A stretch of 62,754 nt of DNA, taken from positions 1 through 62,754 of the forward strand of contig WELB01000330.1 in the NCBI GenBank assembly GCA_009602725.1. The letters are read 5' to 3'. The notes below the pieces were generated by a model. That model saw only the letters and a list, made by a program, of their open reading frames with translations. It ran no database searches and had not been told where the DNA came from. The DNA is from Spirogloea muscicola. Taxonomy: Eukaryota > Streptophyta > Zygnematophyceae > Spirogloeales > Spirogloeaceae. The translations under genes and the position numbers were made by a program. Numbering within the stretch: the first letter of the stretch is position 1; each line of letters begins with the position of its first letter. Below are positions 8,201-33,000 of this stretch, piece after piece.

Positions 8201-10736
8201 CGCAAGAGCTTGGGGAGCTGCCTAATCTCCTCGATTTCCTGGCAGACTATAACAAGTGAGAGTAGCAAACACCTTTAAGAGTTTGGCAGCAGAATACAGC
8301 ATGTGACTGTAGATATTTGAATTTCATCAAGCCTGCAGTGTGAGGCCAACTGGACATAGTGTGCTGTTTCAGTCTGTGCTATGTATGAGGTCGACCTTGC
8401 AGGTGTCAGATCACCCACTTTCTCAAATGCTCGTTTGGTGTCAGCTTGGAGGGTGGAGTGCCACCAGAGCTTGGTAGTTGCAGGCAAATGGTCAACCTGG
8501 ACCTGAGCCACAACTGGTAATGAGCTAGGACTGCGTCTTCTATGGAGCCTTTGCTTGCCTGAGTTACCATGTCAGCAGATACATAAATTGCAGAAGAGTC
8601 ACATCCGACAATGTCACTTAGCGGCTCACTAGCATTTACTGGCAGGTTAAGTGGCCATTTGCCGCCTCAATTGGGAAGTCTTGTGAAGCTCAACAAGCTC
8701 TGGCTTAAGGGCAACAACTTCTCTGGACCGATCCCGGCAACCTTCTCCAAGCTGGAGAGCTTGCAAGAACTGGTGATGGAGTATAACAATATCTCTGGCC
8801 CACTCCCAGAGTGGCTTGGCAACCTAAGCAGTGCTTTGAAGATATACCTAGGTCACAACAGCTTGACCGGAGGAGTACCCGCGAGCATTCGAAGTCTGCA
8901 ATATGTTCAAAGTCTTGACATCTCCAACAACCGCCTAAATGGCAGTCTCCCCTGGGAAATTGGAGAATTAAGCACGCTCATTTCATTTTCGGCTGCAAGC
9001 AACTCATTCAGCGGGCCCATACCAGAGGGTATTGGCAACTTGCCGAGTCTTACCTATCTCGATCTTTCCAACAATGATCTCAATGGCAGCATCCCGGCAT
9101 CCTTTGCTAATCTGAATCTTACTTCCTTCTTTAACATCTCAAATAACAACCTCAGTGGGCCCATCCCTGGCGGTTCTATTGGTCAGTACGGCAGCAGCTC
9201 CTTTTCTGGCAATGCCGACTTGTGTGACGGCCCTTACGTGGCCTGCAAGACAGCTCCACCACCTCAGTCTCTTCCTCCTACCCCATCACCTCCGGAGCAC
9301 AAGTCGTCGAGCTTATCAGGGGGGGCAATTGCCGGCATTGTTGTTGGGGCTGTTGTCCTCCTTCTCCTCCTGTTACTGGGACTTCTCCTGCTGAATCGCT
9401 TAGGTCGGAAAAAGGACAAAACTATGACAGAGAAGGAGCGGAGCATTGAGAGCTTCTGCTCCGAGATGTCCATCACTAAGGACAGACTCCAAGGTCCCTT
9501 CACCTACGAGGAGCTCATGGACGCAACTGAGGATTTCAACGACAACCACATAATTGGATCGGGCGGCTTTGGGAAAGTCTATGGGTACGTACATTGCCCT
9601 GCTTGCAAGCGGTAGTTATACTTGGTACTTATTGTGCCGGTCTTTATCTTATCCATGGCTCTTCCATTTTCTATGGCAAATTTTCACCACGATGCGAAAT
9701 GCTGAGCAGTGCGCAGATGAAGGACGGGCAAAAGTATGCAGTGAAGAAGCTAGCCCCAGATAACAAGCAAGGACTGAGAACGGTGAAAGCTGAGGTGGAG
9801 GTATTGAGTCGTATCCATCACCACAATCTGGTCCTACTATGGGGCTGGTACATCCCTAAGGACAGCGACGTGGACATGCTACTCATCTATCCATTCTTAC
9901 CAGGCGGAAATCTTGACCAATTGGTGCACGGGCAAAATGGCGTGCCTCCAAAGGCAGAAGGATTTGATCACTGGGCTGCACGTAAGACGGTTTTGTTGGG
10001 TGCAGCAATTGGGCTGAAGTACCTACATCACGAGTGCAAACCTCAGGTGCTGCATAGGGACGTCAAGCCCAGCAACACCTTGTTGGATGAACATGGTGAA
10101 GGGTACATGGCGGATTTTGGGCTTGCACGAACCTTTCAGGCACATGACACGCACGTGTCAACCATGGCTGCAGGTAGTTCCGATGCCCTCCAATGTCTGT
10201 TGAGCTGTATCGTAGGCCTCTCTGGTGTCGAGCAAGAAGGATGTTAAGATACATGCTGGTCGAGGCACCTCAGACTGCCTGGCAATGATTAGGGGTCATC
10301 TTTCCTGCAACTCATGACGCGTCACAATATGCACACTGACAGGCACGGTCGGGTATATCGGTCCAGACTGCGCCCTAGGCCAACTGACCACATACAGCGA
10401 TGTCTTCAGTTTTGAGTGATGCTTCTCGAGACTGTTACTGGCAAAAGGCCTGTTGACCCTTTCTTTCAGATCGAAGTTGCAACTGGTGGCAACTTAATTT
10501 CGTGGGTGCGATCCTGCCTTCGTCACGAGAAGCCTTTGGAGTGCGTTGATATGGCGCTAGCTCCATTCGTCCCCCAGAAAGTGGACGATATTCGGGGCGC
10601 CTTGAGATTGGGGCTAATTTGCTGCTCTGATATCCCAAAACAAAGGCCAACAATGGTTGACGTGGTTGAGATGCTCCAGAATCTCGGAGCATTTGGTGCT
10701 GGGTCGGCGTTTCCTAAAATAATCATTGCCACCTAG
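2274..10736 (+). CDS. LRR receptor-like kinase RLK-A, 24 exons, three disabling lesions
   Basis: Predicted plasma-membrane LRR-RLK of about 1,167 residues. Exons: 2274-2365 (signal peptide MAAAAGTAALATVLLALALL), 2832-2975 (LRRNT with SDKAALLAFKAGI and TPCDWFGVVCN), 3229-3404 (two LRRs), then single-LRR exons at 3680, 4043, 4317, 4507, 4816, 5165, 5418, 5603, 5898, 6132, 6348, 6592, 6909, 7206, 7693, 7920, 8184 and 8445. Next come 8646-9584 (about seven LRRs, transmembrane segment, juxtamembrane, glycine loop GSGGFGKVYG), 9710-10173 (YAVKKL lysine, HRDVKPSN, ADFGLAR) and 10343-10736. Eighteen exons encode one LRR each, 14 of them exactly 72 nt, all joined in phase 2. Lesions: a 1-nt deletion near 3344, an in-frame TAA at 5637-5639 and a 1-nt deletion near 10414, judged against paralogs. 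Either a recent pseudogene or one with assembly errors. The ligand is unknown. Confidence 0.85.
2385..2460 (+). pseudogene. Non-LTR C-terminal fragment in RLK-A intron 1
   Basis: Within the 466-bp first intron the plus strand reads VSVSLQRAQAHALHQTAG, matching the C-terminal QRS-ALH block of the non-LTR ORF. The nearest relative is the fragment at 14362-14602. It is a short decayed relic and should not affect splicing. Confidence 0.55.
7446..7613 (+). repeat. Imperfect direct repeat in RLK-A intron
   Basis: Two ~40-base copies sharing TGTCACAAACAGTGGGGCT start near 7450 and 7575, inside the intron between the LRR exons at 7206 and 7693. A short GATGATCTGATCT microrepeat lies nearby at about 7388. 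Confidence 0.55.
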
Positions 10737-17600: not shown

Positions 17601-18340
17601 GGGTGCCAGCACTGGGGTGCCGGGCTGCCGTCGTCGGGAAGAGGCCTCAGCACGGGCTTGGGCCTGCAGCGAGGCGCGATTGGCTTTCTTGGAGCAGTGG
17701 TGCTCGTGCATGCGAACGCCCCGCCGGCTAGGCCAGGGCTGCTGGCAGTACCGGCAGGTCCTGGGGACAGCTGTTGCGGCGGGGCTTGTAGATGAACTGC
17801 TGCAGCTGCAGAGGTGGCGGGAGTTGGTAGGAGAGGCGGGAGGACTGGGGCCATCGGGGGCTGGGTGGCCGAAGGGGCAGGATCTGCAGCCAGGGTTGCC
17901 CCAGAGCCGGGGGGGGGGGGGGCTCGTCGATGGGGGCCTTGACGGCCCATCCTGCGGCCATTTCCGGAGGAGCTGCTGGAGGAATGGGAGGCCACAGCAA
18001 AGGCGGGAGGGTTGGGAGGGTTGGTCGAGGAGGCCAAGCCGGGGTCAGCAAGCCGAGCTATCTCATCAGAAGCAGGGACGACAGGGGGGGGCTTGGGCTC
18101 CACGGCCATCGTCGGGGAGGAGCGTGAAGAAGCGTTGAAGGAGTGAGAAGGTCGGCCTTGGGTGGCAACGGCAGCCCTCGTCGCAGCTGTCGAGCTGCGG
18201 GTGCCGTAAGGGCGAGTGGCGCGCCGCGGCGGGTTGCGCGCCGCGTCTCGACCTTCGGCGGACGCCGCCATGGCGGTGGGGTCGGCCAAGCGGTGGGCGG
18301 CGGCAACGGCGGGGAAATGCGGGGGGGGGGGGCGGGGTAG
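14670..18340 (-). mobile_element. Nearly full-length decayed non-LTR retrotransposon (zinc finger-RT-endonuclease)
   Basis: One ORF with several frameshifts runs from an ATG near 18271 to the stop at 14670. In order: an Ala/Pro-rich N-terminus; a C2H2 finger near 17700-17750 (CRYC, 12 residues, HEHH); RT blocks AAAGGPSGWLFEHF and VLPIAMGEVLTRLV near 16850-17000, GDFLGGFFFALAH near 16420 and the active-site YADD near 16340; GLGCRPLAHLARAAHLG near 15830; CECG...H...R near 15350, degenerate in the last ligand; and the endonuclease LLLDVVLIDAF, HFFPCAMNIYGGYG and terminal HTRGY. Zinc finger plus C-terminal restriction-like endonuclease is the plan of R2/NeSL/HERO-type elements, which reverse-transcribe at a nick in chromosomal DNA. 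It cannot make an intact protein. Confidence 0.85.
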
Positions 18341-18341
18341 N

Positions 18342-19627
18342 GGGGGGGGCGGGGAGAGCCGTTTAAATCATTGTGAACGTCAATGGCCCAGGGACGCGAA
18401 GTCATGGCCTGGAGGGTGGTCAGCGTACTTGCGCTCCTTGTTCCGGGCCGCCAGACCCGACCGCACGCCCAGCGAGTGACGCCGACTTGGCGGAGTTGGC
18501 GGAGTCGACACAATCTGTGGGTACCACATGCGCAATGATGCACGGACCTCCTCTGGGCGGGATGGCGACTAGGACAGCGCGTCGGGTGTGGAGCTGTCCT
18601 TTGGCGCCCAGCTGAATGGGGCATAATTGTCATGTCTTCCACGGCCACCTTGTAGCCGGCCTCCATGAACACACCCAGCATGCTGTGGTAGTGTGAGGCC
18701 GTCCGCTCGCCGTGCGCCCCCGTGCGCGCAGCGGAGCTTATGGGCAGCCAGCTCCGCATGGTTTTCGTGGCAGGCACCGCACTCGCAATCGAGGACCCCA
18801 ACGAGGCAGGGAGGGAGGAGGCCCAGGAGCCGGTGGATCTCGTCCTGAAAACCTCGTCTGGTATCGTGAGCGCCGCGTATATTAGTAGAGCTAAAAGGCA
18901 CGCCGCCGCCCCTGGGAAGGAGGCTGAGAGGAGGCGGGCGCGCCCTCGGAGGTCGTGCGGCGGAAGGAGCTCTACCACCTCGTCATAGGCTTTTTGCAGC
19001 TGCGGGTTGCTGCGGGTTGTTGCAGCTGCGGCCCTTCTGCCACGGGAGGCGCACACACAGGAACATCAAGGCCAGCATCGCGCCCAATGGACAGAGTATC
19101 CGGAGGAATGAGCGGGTGCACCTCTGTGGGCCCTTTACTCATCAAGGGCGGAGGTGGGAGAGCAGGTGCCCCTTGCGTCTCAGGAGCGGGAGGCGATATG
19201 TGCTCCCTCGTGAGTTGCTCCTGCGCTAAAACAGCCCGGACAGAAGGGATGGGGCCGCACGCCGCGACGGCCACAGCAGGCGCCGTGTCGGCGGGACTGG
19301 CACGCCCTGAGCAGGAGTGCGCGTGAAGAGACCCCTGTTGTTCTTGCAGGTATTCGGACAGTCGGGCACTGCACACGCGCAGGCATCGCTGGCGGGTGTG
19401 ATGGTGGCGGCGGAAATTGAGGGGGGGGCGAAGGGGACGATGGCGATGGGGAGGGGATTGACGGTGGGGGTGGCGGCTGAGGCGGCGTGGACACGGAGTC
19501 GGGGCCGGTTGGGAGGGCGAGCTGCGGCCTGGCGAGCTTGGCCGGTGGGTACGCGGGGCTCCGGCTCCGGGGGCGGCATCGGGAGCGCACGGACGGGGTG
19601 GCGGCGGGCGGTGTGGCGGCTGCGGGA
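18342..19627 (-). mobile_element. Second non-LTR copy with the RT region deleted
   Basis: Minus-strand, Pro/Ala-rich N-terminal-like sequence (about 19620-19060) includes CAVPDC and TCKNNRGLFT near 19350, a possible degenerate zinc finger. It joins directly, near 19000, to LQKAYDEVVELL and then DCECGACHENH...HKLRCAHGG near 18750, the cysteine/histidine region before the endonuclease. The RT between them is absent. The copy stops in a poly-G/C run at the single N (18341), where the next element's 5' end begins, so the junction may be an assembly join. Confidence 0.65.
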
Positions 19628-19984
19628 GGAGCTTTTCCAGCCCCTCCTCAATGGGCGAGCACTTTCTTCCTCTCCTTTCGTCAGGGGGAGTGCCTCCCAG
19701 CCGCTAGTCCTCACTCGTAACTACTGAGTGGTCCATCCTCCCCCCGTTCTGACAGCTTCTTTGGGACCCTTCGTAGCTGCTAAGCGCTTTTGGCCCCTTC
19801 GGAATTTTGTCAATACTTCTCGCGCTGGCTTTTCACAGCCCTTGCCCCCATTAAAGAAAGTGCTCGCCCATTGAGGATAGAGGCTGGAAAAGCCAGCCCA
19901 AGAAAGACTGGACGAAGGACGAGAAGGGGCCAGGGGAAGCAAGAGCTACTTCCTCCGCAAGCATTACCTTGCAGTTGATTAGCC
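19628..19984. repeat. Opposed non-LTR tails that truncate RLK-H
   Basis: A plus-strand tail and C-terminal relic occupy 19628-19735. A second plus-strand tail with GCGCTGGCTTTTCACAGCCC runs to about 19850, and a minus-strand hairpin tail occupies 19855-19915. The remaining 70 bases lead to the abrupt start of RLK-H homology at about 19985. Confidence 0.65.
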
Positions 19985-20920
19985 ATGAGAGAGGTCCAAG
20001 CTGAGGTGGAAATACTGAGTAGCATCAGCCATCGCAATTTGGTTCCGCTACGGGGCTGGTACATCCCCAAGGACAGCAATGTGGACATGCTGCTCATCTA
20101 TTCATTCTTGCCCGGCGGGACTCTTGACCAATTGGCGCATGGAGGACATGGCGTGCCTCCAAAGCCAGAAGGGTTTGATCACTGGGCTGCACGTAAGAAG
20201 GTCATCTTGGGTGCAGCAGCTGGGCTTGAATACTTGCATCACGAGTGCAAACCTCGGGTGCTGCATAGGGACGTCAAGCCAAGCAACATCTTGTTGGATG
20301 AACATGGTCAAGGGTATGTGACGAGTTTTGGGCTTGCACGGATCTTCCAGGAACATGACACGTACGTTTCAACCATGGCTGCGGGTAAGTTCCAATGCCC
20401 TTCAATGTCCATTGAGCTGTATCGTAGGCCTCACTGGCATCGTCCAAGAAGGATGTCTTGTACATGCTGGTAGAGGCACCTCAGACTGCACTATTGGCCA
20501 TCTTTCCTGCAACTCATGAACTCGTCACGATGATGCACATGGGCAGGTACAGTCGAGTATGTCGCTCCAGACTGCTTCCTAGGCCAAGTGACTGAATACA
20601 GCGATGTCTTCAGTTTTGGAGTGATGCTTCTCGAGACAGTCACTGGCAAACGGCCTGTTGACCATTTCTTTCAGGACAAAGTGGCAACTGGGGGCAACTT
20701 GATCATGTGGGTGCGATCCTGCCTTCGCACCAAATCTTTGGAGTGCGCTGATATGGCGCTTGCTCCACTCGTTCCCCAGAAAGTGGAAGAAATACGGGGT
20801 GCCTTAATGGCAGGGCTGCTTTGCTGCTCCGATATCCCAAAACCAAGGCCAAGGATCCTTGACGTTGTTGAGATGCTCCAAAATTTTGGAGCATTTGGTG
20901 CTGGGTTGACGTTTCCTTAG
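19985..20920 (+). pseudogene. Truncated LRR-RLK kinase domain RLK-H
   Basis: Only the kinase remains. Exon 19985-20384 begins at REVQAEVEILSSI, so the signal peptide, LRRs, membrane span, glycine loop and ATP-binding lysine are missing. It keeps VLHRDVKPSNILLDEHGQG, but DFG has become SFG in VTSFGLARIF. Exon 20547-20920 gives GTVEYVAPDCFLG through VVEMLQNFGAF and a stop. Exon joins match RLK-A and RLK-D. The upstream border is a pile of retrotransposon tails. Loss of the metal-binding Asp and of the N-lobe means no catalysis is expected. Confidence 0.8.
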
Positions 20921-21550: not shown

Positions 21551-21833
21551 AATCATGAGAGGTAGTATGCTTCAATGTTAAAAGAGTTGCTGGGGCGCAG
21601 CCTCGCTGACTGAATGTCTGTTGTGGGGGTTGAGGAGGCTGTCGGCCATCGCGGCGGAGGTGTGGACGAGGCAGGGGCTGTGTCATGCGCAAAGGCGTCA
21701 ATGCGAGATGGCGTCGATTGGGCCGATATAGAGACAAATGCTGACGTATACGAGCTATGTGATACACAAACCAAACAAGAAAGTGGTTGCGCTGGCCATG
21801 CCAACAAGAAGGCAGTCCGTCGAGAGGCCATTG
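21551..21833. other. Unassigned bases downstream of the gypsy element
   Basis: Non-coding sequence between the RLK-H flank and the last recognisable codons of the gypsy polyprotein. The 3' LTR would be expected here for a minus-strand element, but I could not find a matching copy above 25.9 kb, so no LTR is called. Confidence 0.4.
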
Positions 21834-21929
21834 TCACCAATCGTTCATCTCACGCAATGTCAACAAGGAAAAATCAGAGGTCCAAATTTGAACCTGTGAT
21901 TTCCCACCCCCCCCAACTGTGAGTCCTGG

Positions 21930-22094
21930 CACAGGATGAGAAGTTGGGTAAGTATCTGAGCACTTGACACAAAACCAGTCATCTTGCGGTATAGAAGTCA
22001 TGGGTGGAGTGAGGCAGTGGATATGCCAACCTTTGTTACAATGAGAACACAAAAGCATTGCAGCCACCTGATCAGCTTGTTGGCAGACTGCTCA
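21930..22094 (-). pseudogene. PHD finger at the integrase C-terminus
   Basis: In the same frame as the integrase the sequence reads VCQQADQVAAMLLCSHCNKG, then WHIHCLTPP and DDWFCVKC. This is the Cys4-His-Cys3 spacing of a PHD finger, except that the expected first Cys codon is TGA at 22092-22094 (one base from TGC or TGT). PHD fingers commonly read histone H3 tail methylation, so a role in targeting integration is plausible. That role is inference, by analogy with chromodomains of chromovirus integrases. Confidence 0.7.
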
Positions 22095-22379
22095 GAAACC
22101 CATTGTTTAGTTGTAGCTGGTGGTGTCTAGATTGCTAAGATGGCAAGGAGCAATGTTCTGCACATGATCGCTGATGATGCGATTGCACGAGCCACGAAGC
22201 TTAACAACACCGGAAGGATGTTTCTCCACCACCTGTAAAATCAGTGGTCCGGTTGACGAATCTAAGGCGTCTTGGGGTGTGACCTTGACATACACAAAGT
22301 CACCCACATCAATAGTTTTCGGGGTAGGTGTATACTTGCCACTACGAACAGTAGCATACCGATGAGTGTCGCGATGCTG

Positions 22380-23340
22380 TGCAATGCACAGGTTGTCCAA
22401 TGCCATTGGCATGTGTTATTGGAAGAATTTGCCACGTGCTGTGCAAACCTGCTGCTAAGTCACAGGGTCATCGAGCTTAACAAAATCAGTAACTCTGCTG
22501 ATATTAGCAGGAATAACGGGGTGTCTACCGAAGAGTAAAAAGTACGGACCATACTTGGACAGGGGAACCTGATTCGACAGACGATATCCCATGACCAACC
22601 ATGGCAAAAATCAATCTCAATGTGCTGAACCATGTCTCAGAACATATTTTTGCAAACCCCTTCTTATTGTTTGCACCATCCTTTCTGCCAATCCATCAGC
22701 TTGTGGATGATCACGAGAGGTAAGACGATGATCAATGTAAGATTGATCCAACAGCTTCTGGATGTCACCCTGAAATTCAGAGCCACGATCTGTGAGTACT
22801 TCTGCCGGAGCTCCATATCGTGTAAGCACGGCAGTGCGAAAAGCATCAGCGATGAATACAGTGGATTTCGTTGGGATTATAGCAACTTCGACCCATTTTG
22901 AAAAGTGTTCAATCATAATCAGAATGTAAGGTCGTTCGTCATCGCCTTTGCCGTCGCCTTTGCGTAACGGTCCGGCTAGGTCAAGATTCCATCTGTAGAA
23001 GAGTCCTGCAATTGGTAAAGGATGTAAAACAGGTGACTTCAAAGAGAATGTGCTGCGGATACGATCACATTCCTCACATTGTGACAAAACCTGCTTGACA
23101 GTGGCAGTCAACCCATACCACCAAAATTGAGGCATAAGAAGACTAATCGTACGCTTAACTCCGAAGTGGCCATAGTCGGTATGGACATCTTGTACGAGTT
23201 GCAAGCGTGAAACAGGAGAAGGGACAACCTGATGTCCATAATCCTCGTGAGGTCGCATCAACTGGTTGTTTTGCCGAACATATCTTTTAGCTCTGTGCTT
23301 GATGCGATCCTTCTGGATGATAGTAGTATTGGGTAGGTAG
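22380..23340 (-). pseudogene. Gypsy integrase
   Basis: An HHCC zinc-binding module is seen as HTDYGHFGVKRT followed by CEECDRI near 23070-23190. The DDE core gives WNLDLAGP (about 22980), LTDRGSEF (about 22785) and QADGLAERM (about 22690). The C-terminal part after stops at 22617 and 22611 still reads MGYRLSNQVPLSKYGPYFLL, then GDFVYVKV and GPLILQVVEKHPSGVVKL, a GPY/F-like tail. The frame is intact apart from point stops. Confidence 0.85.
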
Positions 23341-23536
23341 GTCCCAGTCTGAAGATGATGTAGAACTGGAACATCCAACCATACATCTTTTGAAAAGAAA
23401 CTATCATCAGGAGCATCAATAGCACAAGCCACTGGAGAATACTTGGCGAAGCGAGCCAAATAAGAAGCAGGATTGCTGGGAAGCACAGGAACAGTGGCTA
23501 TAGACATCAGAGCAAAATGATCATTCACACTTGTTG

Positions 23537-25001
23537 GAATGGGGTGGCGACTGAGGGCATCTGCATCCAGATTTTGAAGCCCTGGCTTATGAATGATGTC
23601 AAAGTCGTATTCCTGCAACCGTAACGCCCAGCGAGCCAATTTATCAGTCAGATTGGTAGAGGTCATCAACCATTTCAAAGGTTGATGATCTGTAAACAGT
23701 GTAAATCGACGCCCAATTAGGTAAGGCCTGAAATGTGTAATAGCCCAAACAGCTGCAAGGCATTCGCCGTCATATGCCGAGTAGTTTTGTTGAGCAGCAT
23801 TGTTAGAACGAATAGCAAATGCAATGACGTAACCATGGTGGTTCTCATCCTGCTGTTTAAGTACAGCTCCCATGCCGAGTTTACTCCAATCTGGCTGCAA
23901 CTGGTAGTCTTTGGCATAGTTAGGACGACGCAATACAGGAGCAGTTGTCAGTGATCTCTTCAACTGACAAACAGCGTTTTCCTGCTCGGAACCCCAAAGC
24001 CATTGCTTGTTTTTCTGAAGTAGGTTATTCAGAGGACGAGCCAGAGAGCTAAAATGCTCAATATACCGACGGTAGAAGCTGGCAAGTCCTAATAAAGATC
24101 TCAAAGATGTAAGATTCGTTGGAGCAGGAATGGACAGAATTGCCTGCACCTTACTTGTTTGAGGAGAAAGTCCATTCTCCGTGATGTTATGACCAAGGTA
24201 CGAAACTTCAGGAAGCGCAAACCGGCATTTCCCAGGGTGGCACTTCAAGCCTGAAGTTTGTATCAGTTTTAGTACACAGTCAATGTGAGTCACATGTTCA
24301 GCAAAGTCATGATTGAAAACCAAAACGTCATCAATGTAACATCGAGCAAACTAAACCCCTTTCAGCACTTGATCCATTGCACGTTGGAACATAGAAGGAG
24401 CATTTATCAACCCGAACGGCATTTTCACCCATTGGAACAGTTGGTCAACACCCCAGAAGGCCGTCTTGTGACGGTCGCACGGCTCAATCTCGATTTGATT
24501 GAAACCCTGTCTCAAATACAGAACAGAAAAGATTTTAGCGGAACATATACGATTGAAAATTTCTTCAGGTGTCGGCATTGGATATCTATCAAGTGGCGTA
24601 TTGGCATTCAAAAGACGATAGTCACCACACATACGCCGGTCTGTGTAACTCCCATGCTCATCCTTTTTGGCTGGAAGCACAGTGGGAGCTGCAAAAGAAT
24701 TATTAGAAGGCTCAATCATACCAATTGTCAGCAATTCTTGACAACGCTTGTGTACAAAGTCATCTTCAAAAGGAGATAGAGTATACCGTCTTCGGAAGAT
24801 TGGTTTGTCATTGCTGAGGTCAATCTTGAACTTGGCACCCTGAAAAGTACCCAAATCAGTTGCTGAAAAAGCATAACATGCAATATTGTTCTGCAGCATT
24901 CGGATCAATTGTTGCTTCTGCCTGGCATGCAGTTGGGAACCAAGATGCCAGTCATAGGTAGCAGATAAACTAAAAGCAACAAGTGATACAAATGGTAATT
25001 G
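23537..25001 (-). pseudogene. Gypsy reverse transcriptase and RNase H
   Basis: The RT starts at about 24950 with HARQKQQLIRMLQNN and SATDLGTFQGAKFKIDL. It shows PIFRRRYTLSPFE, GMIEPSNNSFAAPTVL, RMCGDYRLLNANTPLDRYPMP and the active-site YIDD at 24327-24338. The first catalytic Asp of the usual LDL motif reads SVLYLRQGFNQ, so it is mutated. An in-frame TAG at 24351 splits the domain. RNase H follows from about 23960 with ALRRPNY-like entry, GMGAVLKQQDE, TDHQPLKWLM and LQNLDADALSRHP. Confidence 0.85.
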
Positions 25002-25079
25002 CTACGTCTGCAGTATTGTTTCGTCTGTTTCATCGTCAGAGCCTCCAAGGAGGGGAGCATCAAAGAGACTCAGTATACG

Positions 25080-25904
25080 ATTGTTCAAGTCTGTAAGTGG
25101 CGTAGTGCCAGCCATGCAATCTATCCACCTGTAGTGAGCCTGTATGCGATGTATCACGCTAGATAGCCAGGTGATAGCATTCAAGTCAAAGGCCTGCCCT
25201 ATGAGGCGATTCTTGGTGACATCAGAAAAGTGAGGAGTAAGGTCACCGGGGTAAAAACCCATGCATTTCTCACGCTCCCGTGGTGTAGGAGCCTCATACT
25301 GGTCGGAGCCCCCCGACTTGATCAAAATCATGCCTTGCCCAACAGCTCCTCGGTCGGAAACTCGAAAAGCTGCAGACATGTCAGTGGCTACAAAGGTCGG
25401 CAATGTGCGCCGATGATGACCAGCCTTGTTGAGTGGGTGTCCGGTAATAAAACGTGGAACCGCTGGAGTTTTCCGCCAAGCGTCAAGGATCAGATCGACC
25501 CGTGTATCCTTTGGAGGGTGTTGTCAATTTATGCAAGCCTGGAGAAGAACTGCGGGTGCCAAGTTTGTCCAGAATAGGCGTGTCCTATCAGCTAGAGAGC
25601 CTACCCTAGCAGCATCAAGTGTCACGCAAGGTCCCAAAATGTGGAACACCCTGCGAAAATCATACATCGCCTGCCTCTTGTCATTGGCAGCTTCTACATT
25701 CTCTAGAATATAACCCATGTATCTTCTCTGCCTACTACGATTATGCAGCAGTATCTTGATCATGGGGAAAACAATGCAGAACTTGGATGATCAAAACCTC
25801 GACCTGATCTTGCATTGCTAAGGCCTTCACAAGGAAAGCCAGCAATGACAAGGTCGATCACAGGAAGCCTGCTGAGATAGTCTCAGTTGATGTTCCTGAT
25901 GTTC
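25080..25904 (-). pseudogene. Cytosine-C5 DNA methyltransferase domain (DNMT3/DRM-like) of the gypsy element
   Basis: Motif IV is IDLVIAGFPCEGLSN, with the catalytic Cys codon at 25829-25831. Motif VI is GYILENV (ENV codons 25695-25703). Motif VIII is DAARVGSLADRTRLFWTNL. After a TGA at 25524-25526 the frame continues through the target-recognition stretch to PTPREREKCMGF and RLIGQAFDL (motifs IX/X) near 25190-25290. The spacing and the R.R.FW.NL signature resemble DNMT3/DRM enzymes, which methylate cytosine de novo. The SAM-binding motif I is not evident; that side is cut or replaced by the minisatellite. A frameshift near 25765 and one stop disable it. The same frame runs on into the RT, so it was part of the polyprotein rather than a neighbour gene. 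Confidence 0.8.
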
Positions 25905-25980
25905 CTGATGTCGGCAAGCGAAGCGGTATCGAACGAACTCGGTCATGTAACTCGGTCTCGACTGTTGTAATTGATAGTGC

Positions 25981-26115
25981 AAACCGCGGATTTTGTAGCT
26001 TATGTCCGAACCGCGGCTTTTGTAACGTATAGTTCGAACCACGGCTTTTGTAACGTATAATTCGAACCACGGCTTTTGTAACGTATAGTTCGAACCGCGG
26101 CTTTTGTAACCCAAT
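25981..26115. repeat. 28-bp minisatellite next to the methyltransferase 5' end
   Basis: About 4.7 tandem copies of a 28-base unit (AACCGCGGCTTTTGTAACGT plus eight bases). The middle copies differ at one or two positions and the end copies are more diverged. It lies exactly where the N-terminal part of the methyltransferase (motif I) would be expected, so expansion or recombination here may have removed it. Confidence 0.85.
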
Positions 26116-27668
26116 GCACTAATGCAAGCATGCAAGGATATACACGCAGGCACTAAGTGCAGCACCTTGCCTCAATATAAAGATATGGCAAGATTAGCAA
26201 CTGCTTACCGCAGTGTCACGGAGACTTCACGCAGTCGTACGCGGGTCCAGGCTAAGGTTCACTAGCTGCCGTCTGCCGTATGCTCTACGCGCTACGCTCT
26301 CTGAGTGCAGGCGTGGACGCAGGCGCGGGGCCGTCTGCCGTATGCTCTACGCGCTACGCTCTCGGGACGCAGGCACGGGCACCGGCGCGGGTGGCGCAGG
26401 CGTGGGCAAGAGGGTGAAGCTTGCCGAGCGGACTGCTCGGCTTGGGGTGCCCGCTTTGGCTCGGGACCGGCGCTGCTGCGGCCGCTGGCCCTGGCAGGCA
26501 GGGCATCGTAAAGATTCGATCGCTGCCTAATAGGCCAGGTTTGGCTGTGGCGACGCTGGTTGGCTAAGTTGGATGACGGGCTTAGTGTGGGCCAACCACA
26601 AGACCCAGGGGGCAATCAGTCCCCGGGTGGTGACCTCCAGCCGTCCGTTCCACAATCGGATGGTTGTAGTCGCGCGTGGGCTTGGGCCCTTGCCGTCGCG
26701 TGTTCGTTGTCGTTCCGCCAAGTTGTCGTCATCGCTCCGTCGCGTTGGTCATCGCTCCGTCGCATTGGTATCGCGTCGTCGTTGGGGTTGAGTTGGTTGA
26801 GCGGTTGCCTTGACTTCCGGCTGGAAGAGGTTCCCATCCCCGACTCGTCTCACATCTGGAACGCGTGACTCAGCCGTAGGACGCGTGTCAAGCAGGTCAA
26901 CTGTCCTAGTCAGATCGACACAAATAAGCAGTCGACGGGATATCGCACGACAGCTGCCGCAGGCCTGGAAGATAGTTACAGCCGCGCCAGTGGGGTCTGT
27001 CGAGGCGCCTCCTCGCAGGCGCTCCCACGGAGCCCGAGGCATCCTCCCAGTGCCGCGCTGCACCTACTGCTGGGGGATGCGGCTGCTGATACTGAATGAG
27101 CGGCCGTAGAAGCCAGCCAGGTGCATATTTGATGACTGTGTAGCGGAGCCACAGACGAGCCGGTCATGGAGAAGAAGCTTTTCTATCAGAAAAGCATGTC
27201 CTGTGAAGGGCTGGCCCACGAGAGCATGACAAGGTCCAGATGAGACGAGAAGCGGAGAGCACGAAGGCCATTTGCCAGTGCCATCTCCCAGTGGGAGCGT
27301 GTACGGTGTGGCATGCACAAACGCTGCTCTGATGGGGCGCCTGCCCCTGGCTTTCCGCCACGATGCCTCGCCTGGCTTGGCAGGAGGATATATTCGCGCC
27401 TGTCCCGTAGAGGCCTCCTTGCCCCGGCTTGCTTGCTCCTCGCCTCTGGCTTGCGGGGTTGCGTCTTCCTCCCCTCAGCTCACCTGACTTCCCATTGCTG
27501 GCACGGGCGTGCTAAGAGCGCCCTGTCTGCTAGCCTGTAGCTCCGTTTATGTAGAGAGGCGCGCGGGTGCGCAGACGTTCGAAAGGGAGCTTATGTAGCA
27601 ATCAACACCCTCTGTATGCACCTGGCTGGCTTTTAGAGCTTTCTTCTAAGATCAGATCTTCTAAGTCT
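26116..27668. other. GC-rich stretch without recognisable genes
   Basis: A 33-bp direct repeat (GCCGTCTGCCGTATGCTCTA...) lies at 26268-26300 and 26330-26362. Around 27420-27560 the plus strand resembles the 3' end of the subfamily-2 non-LTR ORF (CTCCCCTCAGCTCACCTGAC, AGAGCGCCCTGTCTGC). I see nothing else I can name. Confidence 0.45.
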
Positions 27669-28260
27669 CCGCAACGGGGTCCCTCGGACGAGGCGTGTCG
27701 ATCTGGTTGGCGTCCCCCTGGGAGGTGGCAAGCGGCTCCTCACGGACGTCGTCCTAACCGACAGCTTCCGGACGAAGGGCCCCATTACTTCTGAGACCGG
27801 CTATGCCGTGAAGGTGGCCGAACAGAAGAAGTTGAGCACGTACAAGGACCACCCGGCGGGTGATACCTTTTACCCCCTGGCCATGGACATCCATGGGTGT
27901 TACGGGGGTCGGTGGTCCTCGTTACTTTCGCTGCTGGCCTCTCAAGCTGACCAGCGGCGCCGGGAACAGGGTGCAGCCCTTCCCGGTGGCTCGGTGCCTG
28001 TGGGTCTTGTGTCCTGCTACCGGATGCGTCTGTCCATGTGCCTACAGCGGTTCCAGGCGATTGCTTTGCATCGCCAGGCTGGTCGCGCCCTTGCAGCAGC
28101 CTCTGGTCTGCGCAGTGGGGTTGCTCTTCCTACCCTCAGCTCATCTGACTTCCTACTTCTGACACGGGGGTATTGAGGGCGCCCTGTCTGCCTAGCCTTT
28201 GGTTCCGTCATGATCACCTGTATGCATCTGGCTGGCAGTTTACAGCCGATTCTTTAACAT
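27669..28260 (+). pseudogene. Non-LTR endonuclease domain, subfamily 2, second copy
   Basis: From about 27669 the plus strand encodes GVPRTRRVDLVGVPLGGG, LLTDVVLTDSF, KYKDHPAGD-type and FYPLAMDIHG blocks and the terminal SDFLLLTRGY, with the stop at about 28174. It is nearly identical to 13074-13735 and to 32530-33110. The 3' UTR contains GGCTGGCAGTTTACAGCC and joins tail to tail with the minus-strand element that starts near 28300. Confidence 0.75.
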
Positions 28261-28295: not shown

Positions 28296-29230
28296 CTTGC
28301 CCCGCCGGCAGAGAATGAGCTCGCCCATAGAAGAGAGGGGCTGGCAGAAGCCAGCCAAAAAAGAATGGACAAAATCCAAAGAGCTACAGGAGAATCACTC
28401 AGTAACCTCTGCTAAGCAGCCGCAGGTCGGAGATGCTAGGCTCGTTGAAGTGGGTCCCCTGGCCAGAGCCAGAGGCAGCAGCGAGGGCTCTGCCGGCACG
28501 AAGGTGCAACGCCCGGGCCCTAGACCTCTGCAGCGAGACGGCCAGGCGCATTCGATACACTTGCGCCAGCGACCCGACTGCAGGAAAGGCCACCGGCTCC
28601 CCATGGAAGCGACGGGCGATGGTGAGGCGGGCGAGCTGGGTGAGCAGGTCGAGCCACCGAGCGCCCAGCGCCCCATGGGTATCAATGGCCAACGGGAAGA
28701 ACTCATCTTCCCGCGGATGATCTGCGTACTTCAGCTTTTTGGCCCGCGCAGCGCAGGCGACCGCATACCCAGCCTTGGTGGCACATTGAGCTGGGTGTGA
28801 GCGGTCGTAGGCATCAGTGGTCACCACGTCCAGGAAAAGACGTGGCCCGCCGGCCTGTGGGGTGGCCACCAGGTCTACACGCCGGGCGTGGAGACCGTCG
28901 GCCCTTTCCTGGACCGGCATGATGCCGGAGTGCTCCGCTGCCACGGAGAAGCCCGCCTCCAACAGGATGCCATGCATCGCGTCGCGGAGGCGGTCGTGGG
29001 CCGCTGTCCGCTCTCCGCCGTGGGAACAGCGCAGAACATGAGCAGCCAGCTCTCCAGGCTCGGCCCCGCACTCGCCACACTCACATTGACGCACACCCTG
29101 GAGACATGGCGGCGGTAGGCCTAGGAGCCGGTGGACGGCACTACGGAACACCTCGTCCGGGAGGGTGAGGGTGTCGTTGAGGGGGGAGGGCCTGGAGCCA
29201 CGCCGCTGCCCCCGGCAGACGCTCCCGCTC
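28296..29230 (-). pseudogene. Non-LTR 3' half with an intact endonuclease domain
   Basis: The minus strand has an uninterrupted frame down to the stop at 28399. It starts before FRSAVHRLLGLPPPCLQGV and continues through CECG...H...C (QCECGECGAEPGELAAHVLR, then C), AHDRLRDAMHGILLEAGF, ARRVDLVATP, LFLDVVTTDAY, KLKYADH, EFFPLAIDTHGALGARWLDL, RMRLAVSLQRS and LRLLSRGY. It is the best-preserved endonuclease in the window: both acidic positions and the Lys-Tyr are present. The tail at 28318-28375 ends in a GGCTGGCTTCTGCCAGCC hairpin. The RT half is missing, as expected of 5' truncation. Confidence 0.8.
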
Positions 29231-29369
29231 GCGTGACGTCGCGGCCAGTAGGAGATGCTCGGGCTGCTACTGGCCGGGCCAACTGGCTAGGGACTGCAGG
29301 CGGCAGGCACATTAGCACGCGACAGCTCTCAACTCTGTCGCATCCGACAGACCACATCAGGGAAAGGGC

Positions 29370-30096: not shown

Positions 30097-33000
30097 TTGG
30101 CCAGCTCCCTCAATCCCTCCTTAACCGAGATCCTGCGGACGACCAACGCGAAGCTCCTACGACACATCCCGTACTGGGCCCGGCCCCACATACGGCGAGC
30201 CCTTCGGCCCCTCCTGACACGTCTGGCTCGTGACAGCGAGGATGAGGCTGCATGGGCTGTGTTTGTGTTGTTTCCGCGATTCTTGCTTGGTCGCCTGCCG
30301 CAGGGTAAGGCAGGTCGCAAGGAGCTGCTGCTGCGCCTCCACCTCTTTGAAGGTGGGGAGTGGCAGCTGCTACTTGCAAAGCACCAAGCGGCTGCGCAAC
30401 TCGCGCAAGCCAACTATCGGCCCACCATGTCGGAAATGGAAGTCAAGGAGGCGGGCAAGCGACGTGCCATTCGGATTTGCCGAGCCGGCGACCTTGCCAG
30501 GGCTGCCCAAGCCTTGGAGCCCTCCACACCAGCACCGCATGATGCCGCAACCTTGGCCGCACTCGAGCAGCTCCATCCTCCGGCCCAGCGAGGATTAGAT
30601 TCATGGATGGAGAGCTTCACGCCTGCTCAACCGGTGGACCTGGACCCGGCTGTCTTCCGTCGGGCGATTGTGAGTAGCCGCAAGGCAGTCGCCGGGGGTC
30701 CATCGGGCATGCTCTTTGAGCACTTGCGGGAGCTCTATGGGGAGGACGACTCGGAGGATTCCAATCTGCTGCTTAGGGTTGCGCAACATATTGCGCGTGG
30801 ACACCTCACCCATCGAATAGGCGCAGTCCTCTGCACAAGCAATTTCATTGCTTTGCAGAAGGACAGCGGGGGAGTGCGTCCTATCTCGATGGGGGAGGTC
30901 CTGTCGCGCCTAGTGGGGCGCACCCTAATCATGCAGATCCAGGACGATGCCCAGGCGCACTTCCATCCCCACCATATTGGGGCTGAGATGCGTGCTGGCG
31001 CTGAGACCCTGGTGCACGGGGTACGAGCGGCACTGGATGTCAACCCCCATTGGCTGGCCTTAAGCGTGGACGTACAGAACGCCTTCAACTCCGTGGATCG
31101 GCAGGTTATTGCCAAGGAGCTAAGGCAGTACTTTCCCACCCTCCTCCCTCACTTCCGCTGCATGTACGGGTCGCCATCTGCATTGTTGTGAGAGTCAGGG
31201 ACTTCTTTCGCTGTTCTGCAGTCAAAGACGGGGACACGCAAAGGTGATCCAATCGGTGGTTTCCTCTTCGCTCTGGCACATCACCGTGCTTTGCTCAACA
31301 CGGCGAGCGCTCACCCTGGCCTTCTCCTCCCGAGCTATGCGGATGATACAAAGCTCCTCGGCCTCCCATCGGAGGTGCTGCGAGCTTTCGGCACGCTTCA
31401 GCACCAGCTCCAGCTTATCGGGCTTGGGGTCAATCCGGCTAAGTGCTCTGCCTGGTCCCCCATTGGCATCACTCTTTCCCTCTTCCCCTCGTTGCCGACA
31501 GCTTGTCAGACTCCAGAGGGCGGCTTGAGGATCTTGGGAGTGCCACTAGGGGACCCGTCTTTCTCGGAGGGTGCTGTCCTTGCTCGTCTCCAAGGATACA
31601 TGCAGGTCCTGCCAGAGCTCCCCAGCCCTGGGGACTCTCAATTGGCAGTGGCCATTTTGATTAGGAGTGTGGCGCAGCGGCCGTGCTATGTCCTGCGTAC
31701 GGTCCCACCGTCGGTCAGCTTGGATGCTATCTATGCATCCATTGATGTCAAGCTTCAGCAATGCCTTGCTGATCTGATTGCTCACCCACTCCTAGAGCAG
31801 TCTCCAGCAGCACTGGTGCAATGTACGCTGCCCATACGCCACGGTGAGCTTGGTTGTCGCCCCTTGGTCCGCTTATGCAGACCAGCGTACCTTGGCAGCT
31901 GGGCTCAAGTGGCTTCGTCCATATCTGGACGATTCCTCCTTGAGCAACAACGTGTATTGGCGTCTCACATCAGTAACGTGGTCCAGGGGAGTCTGCCTTT
32001 CCAAGTGACTCTCAAAGCATGCCAACAGGACCTCTTTGCCGCATACCCGCCTCTGGTGAATGAGCCTGTATCTTTTGCTACCTGGGCTGACGTATCTTTT
32101 GTTAAGGCTCAATCGCGGATTTCCCGTGCTGCAGACGAGCAATCACTGGAGCATCTCCGACGTCTCCTCCAAGGGGATGCTCGAGGCCAGGCTCGGCTCC
32201 TATCTGTTTCGTCTCTGGGAGCGTCTGAGTGGCTCCGCGCTTTGCCTTTGCATGCAGGCTTGCGAATGGAAAATGCTTTGTTTTGCGATGCTATGCGCCG
32301 CCTTGGCTTACCATCCCTGTGCTTGGCAGGGGTGGCCCAATGTGAATGTGGGCTTATTGAGCATGATGCATTGCTCATGGGTGACCACATGCTCAGGTGT
32401 GCCAGGGGCATTGAGCGTACGGCTCCCACAACCTCCTACGTGACGCCATGTATGGCATCGTTAAGGAGGCGGGATAGCAAGTGGCGGTGGAGAGCACCGG
32501 GGTGATGCCCGTCCAACTCTGCAAACGGGGTCCCTCGGACGAGGCGTGTCGATCTGGTTGGCGTCCCCCTGGGAGGTGGCAACCGGCTCCTCATGGACGT
32601 CGTCCTAACCGACAGCTTCCGGCCGAAGGGCCCCATTACTTCTGAGACCGGCTGTACCGTGAAGGTGACAGAAGAAGTTGCACAAGTACAAGGACCACCT
32701 GGCGGTTGATACCTTTTACTCCCTGACCATGGACATCCATGGCTGTTACGGGGGTCGGTGGTCCTCGTTACTTTCGCTGCTGGCCTCTCAAGCTAACCAG
32801 CGGCGCCAGGAACAGGGTGCAGCCCTTCCCAGTGGCTCGGTGCCTTTGGGTCTTGTGTCCTGCTACCGAATGCGTTTGTCTATGTGCCTACAGCGATCCC
32901 AGGCGATTGCTTTGCATCGCCGGGCTGGTTGCGCCCTTGCAGCAGCCTCTGCTCTGCGCAGCGGGGTTGCTCTTCCTCCCCTCAGCTCATCCGCCCAACG

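Follow-up and report, generated by a model that had tools for sequence, protein, structure and literature searches.

A 62,754-nucleotide stretch of the genome of the zygnematophycean alga Spirogloea muscicola (contig WELB01000330.1; hereafter the window) carries on its minus strand a dead, decayed copy of a Gypsy retrotransposon. Multi-exon GRAS genes are present in the genome, some of them as triplets that share an exon pattern (for example on C28, C27 and C180), and PF01015 matched a single gene. GRAS genes are reported to have arisen before Zygnematophyceae and land plants diverged, and S. muscicola to have undergone a genome triplication, the sole whole-genome multiplication recorded among streptophyte algae (PMC11712027, PMC7994812). 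Comparison with related loci of the same genome (153 Mb in 471 contigs searched; loci are given L-numbers) indicates a Gypsy family that probably encodes Gag, a protease and a DNMT3-like methyltransferase, then a stop codon of the leaky type, and behind it reverse transcriptase (RT), RNase H, integrase and a PHD finger, an organization that fits a model of dosage control and self-marking. The sequences show directly which domains are present and in what order, that these go with a single RT lineage, that the stop is conserved, that the repeats are split and the target duplications 4 bp long, and that purifying selection has acted. Presumably, the methyltransferase (the writer) is made together with Gag, while the integrase and PHD finger (the reader) would be produced by readthrough only.

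The organization is clearest in L010, a better-preserved relative of the window copy. Its first frame of 1411 amino acids encodes a CCHC zinc knuckle, an LLDTGA protease motif and the methyltransferase, whose conserved blocks, which we take to be motifs I, IV, VI, VIII, IX and X, occur in this order and are not rearranged as in DRM enzymes. One TAG codon follows, and behind it, without a change of phase, a frame of 1037 amino acids encodes RT, RNase H, an integrase with D-60-D-35-E catalytic spacing, and a complete C4HC3 PHD finger. The Gypsy (Ty3-type) order of RT, RNase H and then DDE (rve) integrase is thus present in the family. Pfam matches to DNA_methylase (E 6.7e-12) and PHD (PF00628, E 1e-9) exceed the curated cut-offs, and those to the protease (E 2.7e-4) and zinc knuckle (E 0.0024) fall below them. 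A GCT-rich repeat coding for alanine and threonine (L010 3054-3311) separates the protease from the methyltransferase.

Twenty loci of 10 kb each were examined for domain order, and none of them places the methyltransferase, RT, RNase H, integrase and PHD finger in a conflicting arrangement. A methyltransferase match is absent from L025, which is N-masked before the RT, and from the truncated L027, while L028 holds a methyltransferase piece only. Methyltransferase pieces are present in L024, and in L012 the PHD finger is followed by gag pieces that belong to another copy. In L032 (C157:229501-235500), a long Gag-protease-methyltransferase frame runs into integrase and PHD finger with the RT missing, which represents an internal deletion.

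Both extra domains are linked to one RT lineage. The own-genome RT search gave 151 matches, and the following counts rest on the 150 listed; the units are match pieces, such that one element can count twice. A methyltransferase was scored within 2.5 kb upstream on the same strand and a PHD finger within 6 kb downstream. Among the listed matches of at least 110 bits (close RT matches), 40 of 48 have the methyltransferase upstream, 25 have the PHD finger downstream and 21 have both, compared to 0 of 94 for either domain among ordinary Gypsy matches (101 bits or less). Eight weaker RT pieces with 38-66% identity, classed as fragments, were counted apart, with two near a methyltransferase and three near a PHD finger. 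The possibility that the same RT lineage consistently lacks the methyltransferase is therefore not borne out. In an RT tree the methyltransferase-bearing family joins together against ordinary Gypsy elements, and the copies are grouped compatibly in a methyltransferase tree. The latter, built without any named DNMT3 gene and including the database proteins P0001-P0006, P0011 and P0013, unites the seven own-genome domains, but its support for this grouping is weak (59/45).

A methyltransferase profile made from six single-frame copies was searched against solved structures. DNMT3A (6e-11) and DNMT3B (2e-10) rank first, with the bacterial enzyme M.HaeIII close behind (5e-10), whereas the match to DRM2 is weak (2e-4) and covers only part of the length. 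DNMT3 enzymes thus score better than DRM2 in this search, but are only narrowly ahead of the bacterial enzyme. The L010 PHD finger is nearest to those of KMT2C, KMT2D, CHD4, ATXR5 and PHF21A, and it may prefer unmethylated H3K4. When the PHD end of L010 served as a protein query, no match was returned.

Ratios of nonsynonymous to synonymous substitution (dN/dS; Nei-Gojobori type counts) are well below 1 in most usable pairs, revealing purifying selection on the methyltransferase, RT and PHD finger; pairs beyond those used are near or at saturation. For the methyltransferase, three pairs with dS below 1.5 give 0.12-0.15 and two pairs with dS of 1.6-2.4 give 0.05 and 0.09. These values lie in the range found for RT (0.07-0.27, seven pairs), and thus the methyltransferase has been kept about as strictly as RT. 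The median for the PHD finger is 0.20 in 15 pairs, with values up to 0.78 in the pair L012-L021.

The original prediction of one open polyprotein frame does not hold. In the window copy ten stops interrupt the RT frame from motif VI downward, and one of these, a TAG at 25004-25002, is common to nearly all readable copies. We examined 37 methyltransferase-RT junctions (the window copy and the 20 loci, then 16 more loci), of which 27 are readable; L025 is masked, and L027, L028, L034, L036, L038, L039, L045, L046 and L048 are truncated, frame-broken or unmatched. A stop codon is present in 24 of the 27, as TAG in 18 and TGA in 6, although the copies are related and the counts are not independent. 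For L042 and L043 the stop was placed by flanking residues, as the alignment there is offset. CAA directly follows the stop in all 24 cases, and then a YYA codon in 22 (TTA in 8, TCA in 6, CCA in 8), the exceptions being TCG in L019 and CGA in L017. When the TMV-type context UAG-CAR-YYA is applied (TMV, tobacco mosaic virus), two of the 18 TAG junctions lack YYA, and all six TGA junctions have it. The TGA codons occur in one RT subgroup.

TMV readthrough in plants is reported to require CAR YYA after UAG and to be less efficient with UGA, and the same source cites a rice Gypsy element as a candidate for readthrough (PMC2754532). Because the switch between TAG and TGA preserves a stop, and YYA persists while the encoded residue varies among leucine, serine and proline, the junction codon is best explained as having been selected as a leaky stop. 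The placement of a conserved stop between writer and reader implies that most of the product should carry the writer alone. The original proposal of writer and reader on one transposon is qualified accordingly.

The ends of the family also differ from an ordinary arrangement of long terminal repeat, coding part and long terminal repeat. L013 has the plan A1 (994-1381), coding part, B1 (8953-9161), A2 (9161-9555) and B2 (9557-9765), in which the A copies are 96% and the B copies 98.6% identical. The same A-coding-B-A-B plan is found in L017 together with the adjoining L029, and L010 ends after a single B. Matching 4-bp flanks are present in five of seven end pairs (window CAGC, L010 GGCT, L013 GTGC, L017 ACGT, L026 CGGC). 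The flanks of L014 are unmatched (AAGG, AATG), and this pair may join the ends of two copies; one end of L021 is unreadable. The 4-bp duplications fit insertion by a DDE integrase, and they point to a tyrosine recombinase being dispensable for split repeats. In L026 (1632-6891), plus-strand ends with the CGGC flanks enclose minus-strand coding parts, and are perhaps those of a nested or non-autonomous copy.

That a charophyte retrotransposon can capture a methyltransferase, as mentioned in the original prediction, is indeed published. KnitGypsy-Dnmt3 of Klebsormidium nitens, reported in 2018, resembles the present family in its charophyte host, its Gypsy domain set, the intronless DNMT3-like methyltransferase within a polyprotein, the A-coding-B-A-B repeats and purifying selection on the methyltransferase (PMC5890265). 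The family could therefore be KnitGypsy-Dnmt3 as described, with the PHD finger and stop merely unmentioned, particularly as the comparison rests on the descriptions in the main text of that report. We consider this unlikely, since that main text contains no mention of PHD, plant homeodomain or chromodomain, and describes the methyltransferase in the Pol polyprotein frame and not on the Gag side of a stop. In the Spirogloea family, by contrast, the polyprotein closes with a PHD finger, and the RT lies behind a conserved leaky-type stop.

Other known systems share individual features. Chromoviruses are Gypsy elements with a chromodomain, a histone reader, C-terminal to the integrase; here a PHD finger takes the place of the chromodomain, and a methyltransferase is added. 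SymbioDIRS-Dnmt3 of dinoflagellates combines a DNMT3-type methyltransferase in one frame with RT and has split repeats, but it is a DIRS element with a tyrosine recombinase, in contrast to the DDE integrase and 4-bp target duplications found here (PMC5890265). The CR1 and L2 long interspersed nuclear elements carry a PHD finger in ORF1 that has been suggested to aid targeting, but they lack an integrase, and the text consulted reports no methyltransferase in them (PMC4120745). The stop resembles those of the TMV replicase, in its CAR-YYA context (PMC2754532), and of murine leukaemia virus, where a stop lies between gag and pol in one phase (PMC5778647). The present case differs in that a DNA-marking enzyme lies on the Gag side, and readthrough is predicted from sequence alone. 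A 2025 survey also places some DNMT3 members in retrotransposons (PMC12344493).

In the literature searched, which covers few subscription journals, we found no description of a methyltransferase and a PHD finger in one element or of a leaky stop in such an element. Four features appear to be new: the PHD finger behind the integrase, the leaky stop that would put the writer with Gag and the reader with Pol, the 4-bp duplications around split repeats, and, in metagenomic relatives, a methyltransferase located between RNase H and integrase.

Two other accounts of the stop must be weighed against selection for leakiness. RT, RNase H, integrase and PHD finger might be made separately, by reinitiation, from an internal start or from a second transcript, such that the stop merely ends the first protein. 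A methionine at residue 35 of the second L010 frame, with one at a like place in L013 and L011, could serve this purpose. However, its place is not conserved in L017, the two frames share one phase at every junction with a readable stop, and the leaky context persists, which makes separate expression improbable. Alternatively, the stop could have arisen long ago as an inactivating mutation and been passed on within a dead lineage, as the decay of most copies and the sense codons at three readable junctions might suggest. We regard this as about equally improbable, given that the stop is common to subfamilies with saturated silent sites, that RT and PHD finger behind it are still under purifying selection, that it changed to TGA in one RT subgroup yet remained a stop, and that CAA and YYA are retained despite variation in the encoded residue. 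Host-gene origin of the methyltransferase and PHD finger, beside which the element would have inserted, deserves practically no credence even though such domains also occur in host genes, as it is refuted by their co-occurrence with the RT lineage but not with ordinary Gypsy elements, by the single L010 frame that joins methyltransferase, protease and zinc knuckle, and by the fact that, in L010 and L013, the duplicated ends enclose both domains.

Several observations weigh against the proposed leaky stop, the DNMT3 assignment or the self-marking model. A sense codon stands in place of the stop at three of the 27 readable junctions (L009, L016 and L040), one of them in L009, the nearest relative of the window copy, and 10 of 37 junctions are unreadable. 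When 109 bases at the stop were folded for each of three copies, no shared RNA structure emerged (z 0.98, -3.57 and -1.39). The HaeIII score is close to that of DNMT3A, and two methyltransferase pieces of the recent pair L012-L021 have dN/dS values of 0.90 and 1.08 (dS 0.03-0.04). CG observed/expected is 0.50-0.65 in 12 element copies and 0.71-0.99 in four ordinary Gypsy loci, but the surrounding window has 0.64 and 0.66, so that element CG content is not lower than its background, and the comparison is weak and confounded by base composition. Finally, when four types of retrotransposon methyltransferase were assayed in yeast in 2018, no activity was seen for the Klebsormidium one, a result that its authors call inconclusive (PMC5890265).

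Under the leaky-stop model, most ribosomes would stop after the methyltransferase, and Gag and methyltransferase would both be plentiful, at the same level, and packaged with each other. The smaller share of ribosomes that pass the stop would append RT, integrase and PHD finger. Within the particle the methyltransferase could methylate new complementary DNA (cDNA), the PHD finger could guide the integrase to nucleosomes bearing a particular form of the H3 tail, possibly one that lacks methylation at H3K4, and the integrase would insert the cDNA with a 4-bp stagger. We advance this self-marking cycle tentatively, as possible rather than probable: one codon would set the dosage, the writer would be supplied at the level of a structural protein, cDNA methylated in the particle would be delivered to matching chromatin, and a DDE integrase would insert DIRS-like split repeats without a tyrosine recombinase. 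Why a parasite silenced by methylation should carry a methyltransferase is a question raised in 2018 (PMC5890265). The family makes this question testable, as the stop predicts the amount of writer per particle, the PHD finger offers a defined peptide-binding test, and two positions of the enzyme permit comparison.

The second position is found in P0001 (2132 amino acids) and P0002 (1918 amino acids), metagenomic polyproteins retrieved with the methyltransferase region of L010 as the query. Their order is RT, RNase H, methyltransferase, integrase and PHD finger, in contrast to the methyltransferase before RT in Spirogloea. Because both domains are present, the pairing of methyltransferase and PHD finger extends beyond the S. 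muscicola genome. The P0001 methyltransferase has no Pfam match, yet BLASTP aligns it to L010 with 33% identity over 351 residues. RT-RNase H identity is 40-43% between L010 and these two proteins, 31-36% between L010 and ordinary Gypsy loci of its own genome, and 34-39% between the two proteins and those loci. Both join the RT tree on long branches, for which the program gave a warning. Either the methyltransferase moved within the polyprotein or it was captured twice. P0003 and P0004 are shorter proteins with related methyltransferases. More than 300 residues without a Pfam match follow the PHD finger after residue 1791 of P0001 and residue 1580 of P0002.

The window copy itself, on the minus strand throughout, spans 21681-26952 from TGTC at its 5' end to GACA at its 3' end, as judged from end sequences and homology to the L013 A and B repeats. 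The CAGC target duplication lies at 26953-26956 on the 5' side and 21677-21680 on the 3' side. The start of repeat A (26864-26952, coordinates rounded to the element end) is about 80% identical to L013 over 93 columns, and the end of repeat B (21681-21779) is 73% identical. Two leader stretches within 26003-26455 match L011 sequence that precedes gag, 26003-26136 with 75% and 26222-26455 with 88% identity. About five tandem copies of a 28-base unit occupy 25952-26110 of the leader, and 33-base units are found at a like position in L017 (121-300). DNA homology to the two nearest copies stops at 25902-25903, above which the L011-like leader begins, and hence gag, protease and methyltransferase motif I have been deleted. 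The RT tree groups this copy with L009 and L011.

Searches by tblastn with unaltered pieces of L010, together with Pfam, recover methyltransferase motifs IV, VI, VIII and IX/X followed by RT, RNase H and integrase in the order originally described. The piece with motif IV (25763-25903) is one base out of the RT frame, also as described, and motifs VI to X (25062-25775) are in that frame with one stop at 25526. This methyltransferase piece has no Pfam match on its own and is 92% identical to an own-genome copy. The conserved stop in its leaky context, TAG CAA TTA, occupies 24996-25004. It is followed by RT (24303-24956, one decay stop at 24353), RNase H (23535-23861), integrase (22509-23303, two stops near 22616) and the C-terminal part of the integrase (22119-22424, by tblastn), with Pfam matches to RVT_1, RT_RNaseH, Integrase_H2C2 and rve. 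The PHD finger (21930-22088) does lie behind the integrase, but it is not whole and in frame as had been thought: its first part is lost from the frame, leaving the C4HC3 pattern incomplete, and the alignment begins only at residue 12 of the 64-residue probe. By first base, the ten stops are 25526, 25004, 24353, 22619, 22613, 22457, 22418, 22109, 22094 and 21836. A G-rich tract read in the sequence at 21903-21914 lies where a polypurine tract is expected, at a position like that in L013 and L017.

Beside the element is a broken receptor-kinase-like gene (19979-20920, plus strand). Related kinase sequence lies next to the nearest element copy (L009 1507-2431; 76% DNA identity over 1371 columns), the only such neighbor among 21 loci searched, and the target flanks differ between the window and L009. 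A direct repeat of about 470 bases with 93% identity (27673-28145 and 32524-32991) is located outside the element. A repeated frame of 295 amino acids with Cys/His pairs (28402-29286, minus strand) has no match in Pfam or among solved structures. Similar sequences are present in L009 (9725-9876) and L013 (266-708), the region 18061-19065 (minus strand) resembles it by eye, and it is perhaps the end of another retroelement.

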